Source: Bacillota bacterium (GTDB lineage Bacteria; Bacillota; Dethiobacteria; DTU022; UBA8154). Taken from it: a DNA stretch of 35,116 bases. How positions within the stretch are numbered: position 1 is the first letter of the stretch; the number at the start of each line of letters is the position of its first letter. A program made the position numbers and the translations under genes. Shown in pieces: positions 3,001 to 22,650 of the stretch. The notes beneath the pieces were generated by a model that made no database searches, was not told where the DNA came from, and worked only from the letters and a program-made list of their open reading frames with translations. The DNA is taken from assembly GCA_012728375.1 (NCBI GenBank), contig JAAYFF010000031.1, forward strand, positions 1-35,116, in the 5' to 3' direction.

Positions 3001-3029
3001 TTGACGGGGGCAGATTCCTGTGCTATAAT
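3001..3029 (+). promoter_or_regulatory. Promoter for the T-box leader and TRAP operon
   Basis: TTGACG at 3001-3006 and TATAAT at 3024-3029 are separated by 17 bases, giving a near-consensus vegetative promoter. Predicted transcription start is near 3036, immediately before the T-box stem I. Confidence 0.85.
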
Positions 3030-3039
3030 TTGAGTCAAA

Positions 3040-3412
3040 TTATAAATTAAAAGCAAAGATGATGACGGAGAGAAGTAGGCAGTTGACGGCCTTAAGAGAG
3101 CCGGGGGAACGGTGCGACCCGGCGGCCTAGATTGTTGAAATACACTCCTGAAGAGCAAACCGAAAGCCAGGGTTGTTTTTACCGGTCAGTAGGCTTTGAC
3201 GGAAACCTCCACCGTTACAAGGAGGGGGGTATAAGGCTGGATTGTTTCAGTCCGTACCTGGCACTGCAGAAAGAGAGCTGCTCTGTTATCAAGGGTACTA
3301 GGACATAGAAATTCCGGTCCGTACCCTTTAATGAGAGGGGCACATATGTGCTCAATCAGGGTGGTACCGCGTGAAGCCAAAGCTTCCGTCCCTAAGGGAT
3401 GGAAGCTTTTTT
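3040..3412 (+). ncRNA. T-box leader (tRNA-sensing riboswitch), probable tyrosine specificity
   Basis: The conserved T-box AGGGTGGTACCGCG is present at 3358-3371 and would pair with the acceptor end of uncharged tRNA. Upstream is a full stem I: the 5' strand with AGAGAAGUAG (about 3069-3078), the AGAGAG / GGTGCGA distal elements (about 3095-3117) and the specifier loop. The loop reads GAAATACACTCC. Other T-boxes place the codon directly before ACUCC, so the specifier here is UAC (3141-3143), tyrosine. Uncharged tRNA-Tyr should favour the antiterminator and switch on dctPQM. The T-box identity is firm; the codon assignment is read by eye. Confidence 0.92.
3380..3412 (+). terminator. Regulated intrinsic terminator of the T-box
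   Basis: AAGCTTCCGTCCC pairs with GGGATGGAAGCTT (one G-U pair, three-base loop) and is followed by TTTTTT. It lies directly after the T-box sequence, so antiterminator formation at 3358-3371 should prevent it from folding. Confidence 0.9.
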
Positions 3413-3441
3413 AATTAGATAGAATTGTAAAGGAGAGAGGA

Positions 3442-4539
3442 ATGATGAAAAGAAAGCATTTTAAAACTATAGCCTGTCTAACTTTGTTAATATTGCTTTT
3501 TGTCTTATCCGCGGGCTGTTCCCAGCCGGAAAGGGAACTTAGCGGGAGGGACCAGGAAAATGAAAATGCAGAAAGGATATCTCTGAATCTTCGCCTGGCG
3601 CATTTTTGGCCGGCGACACATCCTGCAGAGACAATTCTCGTTCAAGGCTGGGCTGATTTAGTTGATGAAGTGACAGATGGTCAAATTACCATAACCAGCT
3701 ATCCCGGTGAAACGCTGCTTACTTCAGCGGAAATATATGACGGAGTATGCACCGGAATAGCGGATATCGGTTTATCCTGTTTTTCCTATACAAGGGGCCG
3801 CTTCCCCTTGCTGGAGGTTTTTGAACTTCCAGGCATTGTTTACAACAATTCCAAAGCAGCTAGCAAGGTGGCCTGGGAGGGCATCAAGGAACTGAACCCT
3901 GCTGAAGTGCAGGATACAAAACTGTTGATGGTTCTTACGACAGGCCCGGGGGATCTTTTTACAAAAACCCCGGTAAAAACCCTGGAAGATTTAAAAGATC
4001 TCGAGATCAGGGCAACAGGATTGTCGGCTAAAACTCTGGAGATGCTCGGGGCTACCCCCGTAGCCATGCCTCAAGCGGAAGCTTATGAAGCTTTATCAAA
4101 GGGGGTTGTTCAGGGAAACCTAGCTCCCCTGGAGGTCCTGCAGGGTTGGAGACACGCGGAAGTTATCGATTATATCACGCTGACTCCCTTCCTCTACAAT
4201 ACCCTCTTTTTTGTTACGATGAATTTGGATGTTTGGAATTCAATACCTCCCCACCTGCAGGAGGCTATCACAGAAGCAACCGAAAAATTTTTTGACGAAA
4301 AGGCCATCGGCCTTTGGGATATGCAAAATGAATCCGGGCTTGAATTTGCTGTTAATGAATGCAACTGTGAAATAATTGAACTTACTGACGAAGAACAGGC
4401 AAAGTGGATAGATCTCGTCAAGCCCGTCCAGGAAGATTTTATTAAAGAAATGGCCTCGAAAGGTCTAGATGGCGCAGGAGCCCTGCAACTGGTGAAAGAA
4501 CTGGCAGATAAATATAACGGCCTTTATCAAGGCAGATAA
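3442..4539 (+). CDS. dctP: TRAP transporter substrate-binding lipoprotein (DctP family)
   Basis: The extracytoplasmic receptor of a TRAP transporter, about 365 residues. It begins with a basic N-terminus, a hydrophobic segment and a lipobox-like SAGC with Cys26, so it should be a membrane-anchored lipoprotein. The mature part shows the DctP fold pattern (HFWPATHP near residue 54), and IRATG contains the conserved arginine (Arg190) that usually binds a carboxylate. Two adjacent ATG codons at 3442 and 3445 follow AGGAGAGAGG. It is the first gene behind the tyrosine T-box. DctP receptors bind organic acids, including some amino and aromatic acids. With this regulation, tyrosine or an aromatic precursor is the best guess, but the ligand is inference. 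Confidence 0.92.
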   Translation: MMKRKHFKTIACLTLLILLFVLSAGCSQPERELSGRDQENENAERISLNLRLAHFWPATHPAETILVQGWADLVDEVTDGQITITSYPGETLLTSAEIYDGVCTGIADIGLSCFSYTRGRFPLLEVFELPGIVYNNSKAASKVAWEGIKELNPAEVQDTKLLMVLTTGPGDLFTKTPVKTLEDLKDLEIRATGLSAKTLEMLGATPVAMPQAEAYEALSKGVVQGNLAPLEVLQGWRHAEVIDYITLTPFLYNTLFFVTMNLDVWNSIPPHLQEAITEATEKFFDEKAIGLWDMQNESGLEFAVNECNCEIIELTDEEQAKWIDLVKPVQEDFIKEMASKGLDGAGALQLVKELADKYNGLYQGR

Positions 4540-4588
4540 TTAATGAAAGAAAACATTTTAATTTAAAAAGGAGAGAAGGAGAACAGTT

Positions 4589-5080
4589 ATGGATAAATGC
4601 GAAAAATTTATCGGCAAAATAACAGAGTTTCTGGATCAAATTGCCGGACTGGCAATACTGGCAGTAATGCTTTTGACCGTGGCCAATATTCTTTTAAGGG
4701 TAACCGTGGGAACTCCCATCCTCGGTACCTATGAATATATCGGTTTTCTAACGGTAATAATTATCGGTCTGGCCCTGGCCCACTGCGCCTTCCAAAACGG
4801 CCATATTGCCGTAGAGTTTATTATGGATAAATTTCCTGAAAAAGCAAGATTGCCTATCGACTTTTTTACCCATCTGCTGTCCGTTATCTTTTTAGCGCTC
4901 GCTTCGTTTCACATTGCCCTGTATGCAAGGAGCATGGTCTTGACGGGCGTGGTTTCCCCGACGACCCAAACGCCCTTCTATCCGTTTGTTTATCTGGCTG
5001 CTCTGGGTCTGGCAGCGCTGTGCGCAGTCTTATTGGTCAGGATGCTCAAAATAACTCAAAAGGTGAAAACCCATGAATGA
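4589..5080 (+). CDS. dctQ: TRAP transporter small permease (DctQ family)
   Basis: A 163-residue membrane protein with four predicted helices (roughly residues 17-37, 51-71, 90-110 and 130-152). It shows the DctQ pattern, including TYEYIGFL and the HCAFQNGHIAVE region after helix 2. DctQ pairs with DctM to form the Na+- or H+-coupled permease. The ATG at 4589 is preceded by AAGGAGAGAAGGAG. It follows dctP by 49 bases and overlaps the start of dctM by eight bases, so the three genes form one operon. The final MKTHE-like tail is cytoplasmic. Confidence 0.93.
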   Translation: MDKCEKFIGKITEFLDQIAGLAILAVMLLTVANILLRVTVGTPILGTYEYIGFLTVIIIGLALAHCAFQNGHIAVEFIMDKFPEKARLPIDFFTHLLSVIFLALASFHIALYARSMVLTGVVSPTTQTPFYPFVYLAALGLAALCAVLLVRMLKITQKVKTHE

Positions 5081-6383
5081 GATAACTACAGGTATTTTAT
5101 CAATTATACTCTTTTTCGTCTTGCTCGGTTTTAAAATGCCTATTGCTTATGCCATGGCCCTGGCGGGGTTTTTAGGTTTCAGTTATATCGTCTCCCCTGC
5201 GGCAGCATTCAGGGTCGTATCCAAGGATATTTATACTACTTTTTCCTCATATACCTTAAGCGTTATCCCCATGTTCGTATTTATGGGTTTTATAGCCTAC
5301 TATTCGGGTATTGGCTCGCGCATCTACAACTTTGCCTACAAATTAATCGGCCATCTACCCGGCGGGCTTTCCATTGCCACTCAGGTAACATGCGGGCTGT
5401 TCGGCGCGGTATGCGGCTCCAACACGGCAACAGCAGCAACTATCGGTGCAATTGCCATACCTGAAATGAAAAAGTATAAGTATAACGACAGCTTATCCAC
5501 AGCCAGCGTTGCAGCAGGAGGAGCACTGGGAATTCTTATCCCGCCAAGCGTTATTTTCATCGTTTATGGGATTGCCACGGAACAATCCGTCGGCAGCCTC
5601 TTCCTGGCAGGAATACTTCCAGGAGTGCTGCTCATGGGTTTATACATGCTGACAGTATATATTCTGGCAAAGAAAAATCCCCTTCTCGCCCCACCCGGGC
5701 CAAAATATTCCTGGAAGGAAAGACTTGAGTCTTTACAGGGTGGGATCTGGGAAGTTGCTATAATCTTTGCCCTTGCACTGGGGGGGCTTTTCCTGGGATG
5801 GTTTACACCGACCGAATCCGGGGCTGTGGGAGCTTTTGGCATATTGATCCTTACTTTACTGGAAAAACAGCTCACTTTTGAAGGATTGAAAAAAGCGTTA
5901 TCAGATTCCACGAGGACAACGGCAATGATCATGCTGCTCGTGGCGGGAGCGGTAATTTTCGGCAGATTGATGGCTGTTAGCCGTATTCCTTTTGAACTGG
6001 CCAATTGGGCGGGAAACCTGCCGTTGCCGCCCTATGCGATTATGACTATCATCCTGGCAATCTACTTTGCCCTGGGCTTTTTCATCGATGCTTTAGCCCT
6101 CGTCCTGTTAACCATCCCTATTTTTTATCCGGTAGCGGTCAATGTGCTTGGCTACGATCCTATCTGGTTCGGGGTAATTATTGTCCTGGTGGTGGCAATG
6201 GGAGTTATAACCCCTCCGGTGGGAATGAATGTCTACGTTATTAAAGGAATAGTTCCCGACATAGCCCTTGAGACAATATTCCGGGGCATCTGGCCTTTTG
6301 TGGGGGCGCTGGCAGTGTGCATTTTTCTTTTAATCGCTTTCACGCCCATCGCCACCTTTTTGCCGGAACTATTATCCAAGTGA
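5073..6383 (+). CDS. dctM: TRAP transporter large permease (DctM family)
   Basis: A 436-residue polytopic protein with about twelve helices, full length for DctM. It carries family motifs such as GFKMPIAYAMALAG near the start, GLFGAVCGSNTATAATIG around residues 105-125, GGALGILIPPS around 150, and the internal second repeat ending in MGVITPPVGMNVYVI. It provides the ion-coupled transport path for ligand delivered by the DctP lipoprotein. It starts inside the end of dctQ (eight-base overlap). The operon ends here, facing the convergent phosphatase gene only 12 bases away. No strong terminator is visible in that gap. Confidence 0.95.
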   Translation: MNEITTGILSIILFFVLLGFKMPIAYAMALAGFLGFSYIVSPAAAFRVVSKDIYTTFSSYTLSVIPMFVFMGFIAYYSGIGSRIYNFAYKLIGHLPGGLSIATQVTCGLFGAVCGSNTATAATIGAIAIPEMKKYKYNDSLSTASVAAGGALGILIPPSVIFIVYGIATEQSVGSLFLAGILPGVLLMGLYMLTVYILAKKNPLLAPPGPKYSWKERLESLQGGIWEVAIIFALALGGLFLGWFTPTESGAVGAFGILILTLLEKQLTFEGLKKALSDSTRTTAMIMLLVAGAVIFGRLMAVSRIPFELANWAGNLPLPPYAIMTIILAIYFALGFFIDALALVLLTIPIFYPVAVNVLGYDPIWFGVIIVLVVAMGVITPPVGMNVYVIKGIVPDIALETIFRGIWPFVGALAVCIFLLIAFTPIATFLPELLSK

Positions 6384-14643: not shown

Positions 14644-16217
14644 ATGTTTAAAATGCCTGACATGACAGACTGGTTTAACTTGGGTGATTTCTTGCTTGAC
14701 CGGCATATAAGAGAGGGACGCGGCAACAAAGCGGCTATTTATTACAAAGATAAAGTTATTACTTATTCAGAGCTTCAGGAAGCTGCCAATAAAGTAGGTA
14801 ATGCTTTGCTAGAGCAAGGAATTGAAGAGGAAAACAGAGTTATGATCTGTCTGCCCGATTGCCCTGAATTTCTTTATACTTATTTTGGAGCCATGAGGAT
14901 TGGAGCAGTTCCGGTTCCAATAAGTACCATGGCCCTCCCGGAGGATTATAAATATTACTTAAATGACAGCCGGGCCAAGGTCCTCGTTACAGATGACACG
15001 CTGGCCCCGAACTTTATGGAAGTGGCCGGAGAACTCAAATATCTGCGCCATTTCATCGTTGTGGGAAATCCGGGGCCCGGGCAACTCAGCTTTGATGATT
15101 TCATCAAGAACGCTTCTACCTCCCTGGAGGTTGCCCGGACCTCCAAGGACGATATGGCTTTTTGGCTGTACAGTTCCGGAACCACAGGCACTCCCAAGGG
15201 AGTCGTGCACCTTCATCACGATATGCTTTACTTCATTCCCTCCTATTGCGAAAATGTCCTGCAAATCACGGAAAACGACATCGTCTATTCCGTTTCCAAA
15301 ATGTATTTTTCCTACGGCAGGAATTCCATGGAATCGGTCTTTTTTAGCGGTGCTGCAGTAGTTCTGGTACCGGATCTGCCAAAACCCTTTAAAGTCGCTG
15401 AAATTATTGACCGCTACAAACCTACTATTCTCTTCAGCATTCCCACATCCTACATGGGGGTCCTGGATTTTTTAGACGGGGAAGCGAAAAAATATGACTT
15501 TTCATCCCTGAGAAAATGTATTTCTGCCGGAGAAGCCCTACCTAAAGTAATATTTGAGCGCTGGAAAGAAAAAATCGGGGTGGAAATATTGGACGGCATC
15601 GGCTCCACCGATGTGGGAGGGATCTACATTTCCAACGTGCCCGGAAAAATTAAAAGCGGGAGCTGCGGTATCCTTCTTCCCGGTTTTGAAGTCAAGCTTA
15701 CCGATGAAGACGGAAAGGAAGTGCCGGAAGGGGAAATTGGGGTTCTCTGGATGAGAAACGACGGAACTACTCCCTTTTACTGGAGAAAGCATGAAAAATC
15801 AAAAGAAGCCATTCATGGTGAATGGTTTAATACCGGCGACCAGTTTTATAAGGACAGCGACGGGTTTTACTGGTTTAGCGGCCGGGCTGACGATATGCTG
15901 AAAGCCGGGGGCATCTGGGTTTCTCCCGTAGAGGTTGAGGGTATTCTCCTCGAACATCCGGCAGTCCTGGAATGCGGCGTTGTCGGCAATCTGGACGAGT
16001 CCAATCTGGAAAAACCCCTTGCTTTTGTAGTCCTCCGGGAAGGGTACAAAGGTTCACCCGAGAGCTGCAGGATTTCGTCCGCAGTAAAACCGCGCACTAT
16101 AAATACCCCCGCTGGATAAGATTTGTTAATGAACTTCCCCGGACTGCCAGCGGCAAAGTCCAGAGGTTTAAACTCCGCGCCTTGCTGAAAACAGCTAAAA
16201 GCACCTGTGTTTCATAA
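14644..16217 (+). pseudogene. Benzoate-CoA ligase (AMP-forming), interrupted by a single-base frameshift
   Basis: This gene would activate benzoate, or a similar aryl acid, to its CoA thioester using ATP, the entry step of anaerobic benzoate degradation. The first frame has the adenylate motif YSSGTTGTPKG (residues 176-186), the aryl-CoA ligase segment SYGRNSMESVFF, GIGSTDVGGIY and GRADDMLKAGGIWVSPVE. At 16051-16055 (GGTTC) the frame shifts, and the first frame would end at 16119 with a nonsense tail. The -1 frame continues the family C-terminus as TRELQDFV, YKYPRW and ELPRTASGKVQRFKLR. One missing T restores a normal protein of about 524 residues. The shift removes the catalytic lysine of TASGK. 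Either a recent mutation or a sequencing error is possible. The ATG at 14644 follows AAAGGGG by 12 bases. Confidence 0.85.
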
Positions 16218-18312: not shown

Positions 18313-21300
18313 TTAGATCCGGCTTAGCCTTTGCTTAGCTTGAAATACCAGGCTCTCGATAAATTCATCCCGGTTGGCGTTTTCTTTGCCGTCGTAATAG
18401 ATAGCAACAATGGGAAGATTAAGCTCTTCACGGAGTGCGCTAATGTGGGCCTCTACAACGGAACCGGGCATACAGGTAAAAGGAGCGACGAAGATAACCC
18501 CGCAGACCCCTTCCCGGCGGCCCAGGGCAGCAACGCGGCCGATAGCCATCGGCGGCTCGCCCCCGTAATGTTCGGAAACATATCTCCTGGCATGGTGCAT
18601 AATCTCCTCGGGAGAAGGTTCCTCATGGCCGCTAAGCAGCCCGTTTGTTGCCGCAAAGAGGCGCTTCTCCTCCCTGTGCGCAATACTGTTCATCAATCCA
18701 TAACCCGTTTTCTGCAAAAAGCTCTGCCACTGCCTTCTATCCCGGTGGGCTGCCACAGCTTCATGGTAGTTGATAAACCCCGTATACGAAAAGAGTTCCG
18801 AAGCGGGCGCGAGGCTGGCCTCTCCTCCCTCCGCCTCGATCTTGCGGATAAGATCCTGGTTGCAGCGGTCATCGAGCCGGACATAGAACTCTCCGCCCAC
18901 AAGAATGCGGGGCCTTTTTTCGTCCGAGCGGGGAACTTCTGCAAATTCGCGGGCTGCCTCCTCCAAGCACCGTTTCAGCGGGCGGAGATGCTTCCCTGCT
19001 AAAAATTGCGGGATGCTGAAACGGTTTTTCTCCAGGATATCCATCAGCCTCGCCGAATGTTTCTCGAAAAGACTGTCGCAAACCCCCTTCTCCAGCTCAT
19101 AAGGCCTGGTAGAGTGAAGCATTTTGTAAAGAAGATCAACGGCTACCAGCCCGTCATAAAGACCGACGACAAAAGGAAGCCCATATTTTTTAACAACGTC
19201 ATCTACTCTTACCGAGCAAACCTTTCTTTCCCCGAAACCGGCCTTATTAATGAGCAGCGCTTGGGTGGGAGCATAAAGACCGTAACGGCAGGGACCGCAA
19301 GCCCATCCCTGGAAAAAAACAAGGCCGTCTTCCGGATTATCCCGGTGCTGGTGAAGGTAGTCCAAGAAATCCTGCATGTTTTGGATGAGAGGCAGACATT
19401 CGTTCCCGTTCACATAGCGCCTGGCCAGGGCCAGGTCCCGATCTTTGCTCCGCGGCAGAAGCTCCGCATCCAAACCCATATTTCTCATCATGGCCACAAA
19501 TACCCTGGCGTGATGGGTGGGTTCCGGGATAAGAATTTTGCGCCACTCCCCGTTCCCCACACTACAGGTCCGGGCAGAGTAAAAAACCGGCCTGTCCTTT
19601 TCCTTTTTGGTCCGGCAGGTATTTTTAAAAGCCTCCAGGCGGGTAATCATTCCTGCCGGCGCGGTATGTTCATCCAGGGTGAGGCGCAAATAACCCGTAA
19701 TATTTCCCAGGAAATGCCTCAGCATGGCATTCGGTCCGCATTTAAACGGGTCCTGGAAGACGATATGCAAAAGCGGAAGCCCTGTTTCTCCTGCTCTCTC
19801 ATTAAGAAATTCAGCCCAGAAAACCGTCGAAAGCATTTTTTGCAGTTGAATGGGGTAAATATTATCGACGTGCGTCAAGAGGTTCTGCAGCTTATCATTA
19901 AATTCATCCCGAACCCGGTCCAGGGCCGGATGGGAAATCTCGCCGCTGTACCACCCTGCAAGATATTCAAGTAAAAAATCCTGGGGTATGGCCAGCAGCC
20001 CCCTCTGCCGGGCAAAATCCAAGGAACCCTTGGAAACAAAATCATCGTAAACCGTATAGGGTCTCCCCACGAAAACTGCACAGACCAGGTCCCGGTAGCC
20101 GGCCAGCTCCTCCATAATCGTCCGGCTTTTCTCCCTGAGCAGGGAACGAAATTTATCCTGGGCGCGATATCCCTCTTCCACGGCCTGAGACAAGCGTTCC
20201 CCGCTGAAAGCAGAGCCCAGAATTTTTCTGGCAACCGGTTCCAGTTGAAACAAAACCCTTTTCCTGCCTCCCCGGTAATTTAACTGGGCATAAAGGACTT
20301 TTTCTTCCGGAATGCGCAGGGAATTGACGATTACCCCTTTAGACGTCTGCAAAAGAGAGCAGGTAAAGGCCCGCGGCCACTCCTGCGCCCAAGGCAGGGG
20401 CTCCATATCCACCACTTCGGGAATAAAAAGATAATCCAGATCCATCTCCGCCAGTTCAGCGTAGTGTCCTACCAATACTTCCATGGGAAAACACATTTCA
20501 GTTTTTAATTCCCTTTTACCCTTTTCCAAAATCCCGGTAGAAGTAGGAGGCGAAAGCACGATTTGTACACCCAGACTGCGGAAAAATGCCGACCAAAATG
20601 GATAGAGATCGAAAAACATTCCGCTGCGGGCTATCCCAATCCGAGGACCTTCTTGCAGCGGCTCACCGGCTGCTTCATAAAAAGCCTCATTGCGCCAAAC
20701 TTTATAATCGGGGATGCGTTCGTCAACAACTTTTTTCTCCAGCCCTGAATAACGGCCGCAACGGTCTCCGTAAAGAAATTTGCTGCCGTCCTTAAATTGG
20801 ATCACGTCAAGGGTACAGTTATGTTCGTGTTCGCATTTTGCTTTGCATTTGGTTTTGCTTACGGTAAAACCTTTCAACTTCTGCAGGCTGCGGAAAGCAA
20901 AGTCCGGTTTTTGCCCCTCCAGGTGGAATGCTCTGGCTATGACAGCGCTCCCCAGCGCTCCGGACAGCTCGGGATGGGGAGGGACGGTAATTTCCCGCCC
21001 GCATTCCGCAGCAAAGGCTGCAGCCAAGGCATGGTTCTTGGCCGTTGCCCCGGTAAAGATAAGCCTTCCTTCCAGGGGCCGGCTTTCCACTGTTTTGGTA
21101 ATATAATTTTTTGCAGAAGAATAAGCCAGGCTGGCCAGCTGAGAAGTCAGCGGCAGCCCCCTTGAAGCGGCCGCAACAAGGGACGATTGGGAGAGCAGGG
21201 TGCAGGTATCACCGAGATCAACAGCATACTCCGCCTCAAAAGCCAGACGGGAGAACTCCTCTTTAATCTCCACTCCCAACAAACCAGCCAGGTTTTCCAG

Positions 21301-22650
21301 GAAAGTCCCTGTTCCTGCGGCGCAAACGGGGTTCATATTATAATCGTACAACAAGCCGTTTTTTAACTGCAGAAATTTGGAATCCTCACCGCCGATCTCA
21401 ATAATGGAAAGCGTTCCTTCCTCTCCGCAGAGATATTTTACACCTTCAGCCTGGCAGGTAATTTCGTCCACAGCATATTCGGCATTTAATATTTTCTGGG
21501 ATAAAAACCGTCCTGACCCTGTGGTACAGGCCACAATGGGAACACCGCGCAAAAGGTTGCCGTACCGGCGTTCTACTTCTTTGATCAGTTCCAGCACCTG
21601 CAGCGCAGGACGGCCTGCTGTGGGAAAATAAATTCCGCCGATAAAACGGCCCTTACCATCGAGCAAGGCACACTTAGTGGAAACAGAACCACAGTCTACA
21701 CCCAGGTAAACGGTGCTAAGATCATAATCATCCTTGCGAGGAAGTTCTTCCATATATTTTACTTTTTCCGGTTCAAGGGGGGGCAGGGGGTTTTCCGGAA
21801 GATATTGCTCTCCCAGAAGCTCTCCCAAACTCAACAGGGATGATACGGGGAACCTGTCCCGCACCGAAGATACCCCTATGGCGCTGATAAATTCGTGATC
21901 CGGAGGGATAACAAGTTCTACGCCGCGCTCCGCACAGTACTCCTCTATGTATTTAATTACCGCCTTATTGTTGGACACTCCCCCAACCGCTAGAAGTACC
22001 CCCGGACCGGCAATCCGGTTCAGGGCAACGCCGGAAAGAACCATATCGGCAAGGGCTTTGGCCATTCCGGCAGATACTGCGCCCTGGGTTGCACCCTCGT
22101 TAATAGCATGAGTCATGTCCGATTTGGCAAAAACAGCACAGCGGCCTGAAATTTTTACCGGAGCATCCGCTTCCAGGGCAATCTTAGCCAGATCCCGGTC
22201 ATTATATCCCATCCGGGTTGCCTGCTGGTACCAAAAAGCACCGCTTCCTGCCGCGCATTGCCCGTTGCGGTTAAAGAATGTAACCGCGCCTGCAGGCCCC
22301 AGCTCAAGATAATACATATTTTCATGACCAAGGGAAAGAACGGCACGGCCATCCAGCCCCTGGAACATCAGCCCGCGCTGTAAAGCTTCAATCTCCAGAT
22401 GGGGCTTTACCCCCAGTTTTTTGGCAAGAAGAGGAGCATTAGCCCCCGTCAGGCCAAAACGGACATGACCCTTTCTCCCCCGCAGCAAAGACTCCAGACA
22501 TTTCCTCGCCGCCTCAACAGGGTTTCCCGCCGTTGGAACAGAAACCTTGCGAATCTCTTTCCCTTCAACCAGTACTCCTTTTACGGCAAAAGTACCCAGG
22601 TCAAGCCCGACCCCCGGGAATGTTGCAGCATCCTCGTCATGCAAGTTCAT
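18313..22650 (-). CDS. Giant acyl-CoA dehydratase/benzoyl-CoA reductase-type activase fused to COG3580/COG3581-like modules
   Basis: A 1445-residue cytosolic iron-sulfur protein. Two ASKHA ATPase units lie in tandem: about 12-265 (GVGLDLGT, GQCAAGSGAF, SGRCAVFAKSDMTH) and about 314-575 (YLGVDCGSVSTKCALL, VCAAGTGTFLENLAGLLG, CTLLSQSS). Cys132/Cys171 and Cys443/Cys483 match in motif and spacing the cysteines that hold the [4Fe-4S] cluster of the 2-hydroxyglutaryl-CoA dehydratase activator. A Cys-rich linker (CKAKCEHEHNC, 602-612) leads into a DUF2229/COG3580-like part (about 665-1000) and a COG3581-like part (about 1020-1440). The latter two carry Cys motifs EMCFP, CGPN, NGNECLP, ACGPCRYG and FTCMPG. 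The family may couple ATP hydrolysis to low-potential electron transfer, but the electron acceptor is unknown. AGAGGTGA precedes the ATG at 22650, and a strong terminator follows. Confidence 0.9.
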   Translation of the reverse strand: MNLHDEDAATFPGVGLDLGTFAVKGVLVEGKEIRKVSVPTAGNPVEAARKCLESLLRGRKGHVRFGLTGANAPLLAKKLGVKPHLEIEALQRGLMFQGLDGRAVLSLGHENMYYLELGPAGAVTFFNRNGQCAAGSGAFWYQQATRMGYNDRDLAKIALEADAPVKISGRCAVFAKSDMTHAINEGATQGAVSAGMAKALADMVLSGVALNRIAGPGVLLAVGGVSNNKAVIKYIEEYCAERGVELVIPPDHEFISAIGVSSVRDRFPVSSLLSLGELLGEQYLPENPLPPLEPEKVKYMEELPRKDDYDLSTVYLGVDCGSVSTKCALLDGKGRFIGGIYFPTAGRPALQVLELIKEVERRYGNLLRGVPIVACTTGSGRFLSQKILNAEYAVDEITCQAEGVKYLCGEEGTLSIIEIGGEDSKFLQLKNGLLYDYNMNPVCAAGTGTFLENLAGLLGVEIKEEFSRLAFEAEYAVDLGDTCTLLSQSSLVAAASRGLPLTSQLASLAYSSAKNYITKTVESRPLEGRLIFTGATAKNHALAAAFAAECGREITVPPHPELSGALGSAVIARAFHLEGQKPDFAFRSLQKLKGFTVSKTKCKAKCEHEHNCTLDVIQFKDGSKFLYGDRCGRYSGLEKKVVDERIPDYKVWRNEAFYEAAGEPLQEGPRIGIARSGMFFDLYPFWSAFFRSLGVQIVLSPPTSTGILEKGKRELKTEMCFPMEVLVGHYAELAEMDLDYLFIPEVVDMEPLPWAQEWPRAFTCSLLQTSKGVIVNSLRIPEEKVLYAQLNYRGGRKRVLFQLEPVARKILGSAFSGERLSQAVEEGYRAQDKFRSLLREKSRTIMEELAGYRDLVCAVFVGRPYTVYDDFVSKGSLDFARQRGLLAIPQDFLLEYLAGWYSGEISHPALDRVRDEFNDKLQNLLTHVDNIYPIQLQKMLSTVFWAEFLNERAGETGLPLLHIVFQDPFKCGPNAMLRHFLGNITGYLRLTLDEHTAPAGMITRLEAFKNTCRTKKEKDRPVFYSARTCSVGNGEWRKILIPEPTHHARVFVAMMRNMGLDAELLPRSKDRDLALARRYVNGNECLPLIQNMQDFLDYLHQHRDNPEDGLVFFQGWACGPCRYGLYAPTQALLINKAGFGERKVCSVRVDDVVKKYGLPFVVGLYDGLVAVDLLYKMLHSTRPYELEKGVCDSLFEKHSARLMDILEKNRFSIPQFLAGKHLRPLKRCLEEAAREFAEVPRSDEKRPRILVGGEFYVRLDDRCNQDLIRKIEAEGGEASLAPASELFSYTGFINYHEAVAAHRDRRQWQSFLQKTGYGLMNSIAHREEKRLFAATNGLLSGHEEPSPEEIMHHARRYVSEHYGGEPPMAIGRVAALGRREGVCGVIFVAPFTCMPGSVVEAHISALREELNLPIVAIYYDGKENANRDEFIESLVFQAKQRLSRI

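Follow-up and report, generated by a model that had tools for sequence, protein, structure and literature searches.

A tyrosine-type T-box as the probable switch of a predicted aromatic-carboxylate TRAP importer in a Bacillota bacterium

The DNA analysed here, referred to as the window, comprises 35,116 nucleotides of a Bacillota bacterium (assembly GCA_012728375.1, contig JAAYFF010000031.1, positions 1 to 35,116 of the forward strand). It carries a T-box leader RNA with a predicted tyrosine specifier upstream of dctPQM, the genes of a tripartite ATP-independent periplasmic (TRAP) transporter. We propose that this tyrosine T-box governs the expression of a TRAP system that imports aromatic carboxylates, a reading to which we assign a probability of roughly 0.8. 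Promoter, leader, terminator and dctPQM are all present, far above chance, at the following positions.

3001..3029, forward strand: sigma-70-type promoter, TTGACG-17 nt-TATAAT, with 11 of 12 consensus bases and an extended TG before the second hexamer
3053..3396, forward strand: T-box leader RNA from stem I to antiterminator (RF00230, model positions 1-219 of 219)
3141..3143, forward strand: specifier UAC (Tyr) in the context GAAA-UAC-AC, aligned by Rfam to the specifier column and invariant in 11 Tyr leaders
3224..3326, forward strand: structured insert between stem III and antiterminator, an accessory hairpin, apparently duplicated, with a folding energy of -39.9 kcal/mol
3358..3371, forward strand: T-box sequence AGGGTGGTACCGCG, containing the bulge UGGU (3362-3365), able to pair with the tRNA end ACCA
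3379..3409, forward strand: intrinsic terminator hairpin of 14 bp followed by a T tail (-22.5 kcal/mol, z -5.6)
3442..4539, forward strand: dctP, TRAP substrate-binding protein, a probable lipoprotein of predicted aromatic-acid (TarP/Dde_0634) type (PF03480, over cut-off)
4589..5080, forward strand: dctQ, TRAP small membrane subunit (PF04290, 78.2 bits)
5073..6383, forward strand: dctM, TRAP large membrane subunit (PF06808, 342.4 bits)

These elements agree with the original prediction, which had described a near-consensus promoter, a complete T-box, a regulated terminator and a downstream dctPQM. The promoter begins 39 nt upstream of the interval that the prediction had covered (from 3040). 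The Rfam search of the window returned the leader at 108.4 bits, against a gathering threshold of 93 (E 2.9e-23) and along the whole covariance model, and gave no match besides this RF00230 T-box. The three transporter genes are contiguous, lie on one strand and all exceed the Pfam cut-offs, forming a full TRAP operon. The terminator hairpin and its T tail follow the T-box, and their regulation is predicted. In an alignment of 11 leaders, seven upstream of TRAP genes and four upstream of tyrosine or shikimate biosynthesis genes, 96.7% of the terminator pairs are kept and three pairs are altered on both sides. In the Rfam alignment, the predicted antiterminator forms its pairs with the CGUCCC segment, which the terminator uses as well, and the two may compete. 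As an RNA, the leader is an ordinary T-box, sharing with the Tyr class (RF00230; B. subtilis tyrS, B. cereus group Tyr biosynthesis operon) the common stem I with UAC, the T-box sequence, the predicted antiterminator, the terminator and a UGGU that matches an A discriminator. It differs from them in its predicted target, a TRAP importer, and in a structured hairpin insert, apparently duplicated, that lies ahead of the antiterminator and in which columns 217-231 pair with columns 307-324 across the 11 leaders. The insert hairpin GGGUAUAAGGCUGG...CCGGUCCGUACC (columns 217-324) is conserved in 11/11 Tyr leaders and apparently duplicated in tandem in seven; similar GGGUAU...CCGUAC pairs are present in Trp leaders.

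The predicted specificity of the leader for tyrosine holds on several grounds. The Rfam alignment places UAC in the specifier position, as had originally been proposed, and UAC recurs in all seven TRAP leaders. The tRNA-Tyr of the window's genome (G000) has the anticodon GUA and the 3' end CCUCUCC-A-CCA, with A as discriminator, and fits both the UAC specifier and the UGGU bulge. Among the 14 T-box matches of this genome, a second UAC leader precedes the genes for 3-deoxy-D-arabino-heptulosonate 7-phosphate synthase, prephenate dehydrogenase, 5-enolpyruvylshikimate-3-phosphate synthase, chorismate synthase and dehydroquinate synthase (aroF-tyrA-aroA-aroC-aroB), and is about 77% identical to the window leader in a full-length alignment that includes the insert before the antiterminator. 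Other specifiers in the same genome name the expected amino acids, i.e. AUC for ileS, UUC for pheST, CUC for leuA, CGC for argC, UGG for trp and GUC for ilvE; these were read by eye in alignments, and the downstream genes were identified by the N-terminal part of their translations. Specifier frames in T-boxes are sometimes ambiguous (TBDB), and the window could in principle be read as AUA (isoleucine) or ACA (threonine). We regard such a reading as practically negligible, as AAAUACAC is invariant among the 11 aligned leaders, four of which sit on shikimate or tyrosine biosynthesis genes, and as, in TBDB, 99% of the specifiers for Tyr are UAC, whereas AUA makes up only 1% of those for Ile. Directly upstream of the Tyr biosynthesis T-box lies a weak T-box match, a degenerate tandem, both in the window's genome (G000:C62:18796-18953, 46.1 bits) and in a related one (G001:C18:28880-28998, 36.2 bits).

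The original prediction had raised the recurrence of T-box/TRAP pairs in related genomes, and this was borne out in a family comparison set of 23 genomes. A T-box together with a dctP orthologue was found in six genomes besides that of the window (G001, G002, G015, G017, G018, G022), all over the Rfam cut-off, giving the pair in 7/23 genomes with a UAC specifier every time. Among the 80 nearest DctP homologues in a GTDB scan, the motif was present upstream of dctP in five loci only, which are the family genomes already found, and Rfam detected no T-box upstream of dctP in ten other GTDB homologues; the idea that all relatives of this TRAP system carry a T-box was rejected on these results. In the leader tree, the TRAP leaders of G000, G001, G002, G018 and G022 form one clade (97/92), with those of G017 and G015 placed elsewhere. 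The DctP tree contains the identical five-genome clade (100/99); in it, G015 stands next to G013, which is free of the T-box, and the neighbour of G017 is G019, whose contig begins 118 nt before dctP, so that a T-box farther upstream is possible there. A single clade was rejected by the approximately unbiased (AU) test both for the seven TRAP leaders (AU p 0.0024, with a bootstrap that had not settled) and for the T-box-linked DctPs (AU p 5e-8), and a single origin of the pair was discarded. Therefore, the same TRAP group appears, from these trees, to have probably recruited the Tyr leader two or three separate times; the trees could otherwise be explained by loss from certain lineages or by transfer. 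A copy of the leader that precedes the tyrosine biosynthesis operon is the probable source of the TRAP leader. T-boxes are known to move semi-independently of the genes that they control (PMC2494555) and the pair is confined to one bacterial family, as would be expected if the leader were a chance insertion or a decaying duplicate that says nothing of the cargo. We consider this very improbable, given that the leader is complete and conserved in seven species, that the terminator pairing is preserved through double changes and that the same TRAP group apparently gained a T-box more than once.

The receptor points to the class of the cargo independently of the riboswitch. By sequence, the solved structures closest to DctP are 4n6d, Dde_0634 (4nap, 4pgn, 4pgp) and those of TarP, and aromatic-acid receptors make up the first ~11 distinct sequences; the 15 best structural matches belong to the same TarP/Dde_0634 group. 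The titles of the matched structures name coumarate, caffeate, ferulate, cinnamate, 4-hydroxyphenylacetate (7nqg) and 'aromatic acid ligands'. The carboxylate-binding arginine, R190, is invariant in 19 DctP homologues and is missing from two DctP paralogues of the window's own genome (contigs C9 and C36). TRAP receptors are described as generally requiring a carboxylate (PMC4646407), TarP binds cinnamic acids with nanomolar dissociation constants (PMC3610893), and indole acids are among the TRAP ligands in a review (PMC5812351). From these relatives, DctP is predicted to be a TarP-type aromatic-acid receptor. The window system thus shares with TarPQM of R. palustris (PMC3610893) and with Dde_0634 the DctP family, the conserved arginine and the best sequence and structure matches. 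In contrast to TarP, which lies in a coumarate-metabolism locus of a Proteobacterium, the window TRAP has a tRNA-sensing leader that suggests biosynthesis or supply. Gene neighbourhoods lend the aromatic cargo support of their own. G001 possesses a second, T-box-free TRAP copy, whose DctP is 84% identical to that of the T-box copy; it adjoins an acyl-CoA ligase, IorA (over cut-off), IorB, two subunits resembling 2-hydroxyacyl-CoA dehydratase and a PaaK-like ligase. A PaaK-like (phenylacetate-CoA-ligase) gene also lies near dctPQM in three Desulfonatronum-type loci. The riboswitch had been presented as a rare direct clue to the substrate of a TRAP system; the specifier does name an amino acid, but it is not the sole clue, as aromatic-acid TRAP receptors were already known.

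The sequence establishes the T-box with its specifier, the tRNA that fits it, the order of the genes, how the pair recurs and what DctP is related to; antitermination by the leader, the nature of the cargo and its fate are inferred. Uncharged tRNA-Tyr would pair through its anticodon GUA with the UAC specifier and through its free ACCA end with the UGGU bulge; the antiterminator would then displace the terminator, and dctPQM would be transcribed. With charged tRNA-Tyr, transcription would halt at 3379-3409. The importer would supply tyrosine or, likelier, an aromatic acid convertible to tyrosine, e.g. 4-hydroxyphenylacetate or 4-hydroxyphenylpyruvate.

An aromatic acid precursor is the likelier cargo because Phe T-boxes in the same genomes control indolepyruvate:ferredoxin oxidoreductase (IOR), an acyl-CoA ligase and a Na+ symporter. 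In G000 and G001, iorA-iorB and an AMP-binding (acyl-CoA) ligase follow a Phe (UUC) T-box. Na+:solute symporters of SSF type have such a leader in G000, G001, G002, G015 and G022, and in G015 and G017 it stands directly before the ligase without ior. Methanogens are known to use IOR for synthesis from aryl acids. Phenylalanine starvation should not trigger phenylalanine breakdown, for which an oxidative, degradative IOR would serve; therefore, IOR probably runs in the reductive, biosynthetic direction in these genomes, as it does in methanogens. By analogy, the Tyr TRAP may import a 4-hydroxyphenyl acid. We give about even odds to the specific proposal that 4-hydroxyphenylacetate or another aryl acid is imported, activated with CoA, reductively carboxylated by IOR to the arylpyruvate and transaminated. 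The TarP-type fold is known with 4-hydroxyphenylacetate, and the general need for a carboxylate noted above is in keeping with it. Weighing on the other side, the T-boxes in front of IOR and the ligase are of the Phe and not the Tyr type, only two genomes were found to carry one on ior itself, and the relatives of the ligase do not fix its substrate. Furthermore, tyrA and prephenate dehydratase are both present in the window's genome and would make the route optional; as the standard aromatic routes exist, the use of aryl acids would be a salvage option. A missing phenylalanine route that would force aryl-acid use was considered and rejected, given the prephenate dehydratase. Across several genomes of the family, Phe (UUC) T-boxes stand before iorAB with an acyl-CoA ligase, before SSF-type Na+ symporters and before ABC transporters, at L098:4745-9135, L102, L099, L116, L105, L111, L114, L094 and L095.

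The original prediction favoured L-tyrosine, or aromatic amino acids generally, as the cargo. Its wider proposal, tyrosine or an aromatic precursor, stands as far as the aromatic nature of the cargo is concerned, which DctP relatives and gene neighbourhoods support; the evidence leans to an acid precursor and away from tyrosine itself. The structure 4nap (Dde_0634) holds D-tryptophan, so that an alpha-amino group is not excluded from the fold. The cargo of a transporter under a T-box is usually the amino acid that the specifier names. Tyr T-boxes on NhaC and NSS transporters have been interpreted in this way (PMC2494555). Set against this, the acids named in the structure titles of the receptor group, from coumarate to 4-hydroxyphenylacetate, have no amino group, and we hold L-tyrosine to be a doubtful, though credible, cargo. 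We tentatively extend the preferred reading, import of an aromatic acid precursor, to an aryl-acid salvage regulon, with somewhat less than even confidence. In such a regulon, starvation for charged tRNA-Tyr or tRNA-Phe would switch on import of aryl acids by the TRAP system and by Na+ symporters, their CoA activation and their reductive carboxylation by IOR towards tyrosine and phenylalanine, the TRAP arm having been recruited repeatedly through copying of the Tyr-biosynthesis T-box.

Several points weigh against the proposal of a T-box-controlled importer of aromatic carboxylates. The C36 paralogue, which has no R190 equivalent, is also nearest to TarP-group structures; therefore, belonging to this group is not enough to identify the ligand. 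Beyond the family, homologues mostly form stand-alone operons and the genes around them are uninformative on the cargo, and several branches of the leader tree are weak. The evidence comes from the comparison of sequences and structures.

Transporters of the MFS, APC, NSS, DAACS, LIVCS, NhaC and ABC families are known under T-boxes, the Tyr cases being NhaC and NSS (Wels et al. 2008, PMC2494555). There, as is proposed here, the specifier predicts the imported compound, and Tyr leaders were copied to transporter genes. TRAP lies outside these seven families, and the receptor encoded in the window belongs to a group noted for binding aromatic acids that lack an amino group. We found no prior mention of a T-box paired with a TRAP transporter in the open literature, an earlier mention elsewhere being possible; as far as checked, TRAP is a new T-box target, adding a transporter class to those known in the literature searched. 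Sequence is a poor guide to what TRAP systems carry, and the specifier codon would name the amino acid whose shortage turns the importer on. As the same TRAP group has been paired with such a leader repeatedly and, it appears, independently, this link between amino acid and importer is more than an accident. The pairing also suggests a directly testable route for anaerobes, which may use aromatic acids that they scavenge to rebuild tyrosine and phenylalanine.

Two further observations concern neighbouring genes and other T-boxes. Elsewhere in the window, 14644-16119 encodes a member of the benzoate-CoA-ligase family (over cut-off), and the product of 18313-22650 is 1445 aa long and carries acyl-CoA dehydratase activase domains. 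The original prediction had spoken of an aromatic degrader, a lifestyle that is conjectural for this organism, although the window does carry that benzoate-CoA-ligase-family gene. Apparent Ala-specifier T-boxes (GCC or similar) precede a gene for an AsnC/Lrp-like regulator at L001, L068, L069, L070 and L072, with an aminotransferase-like gene next in L001.

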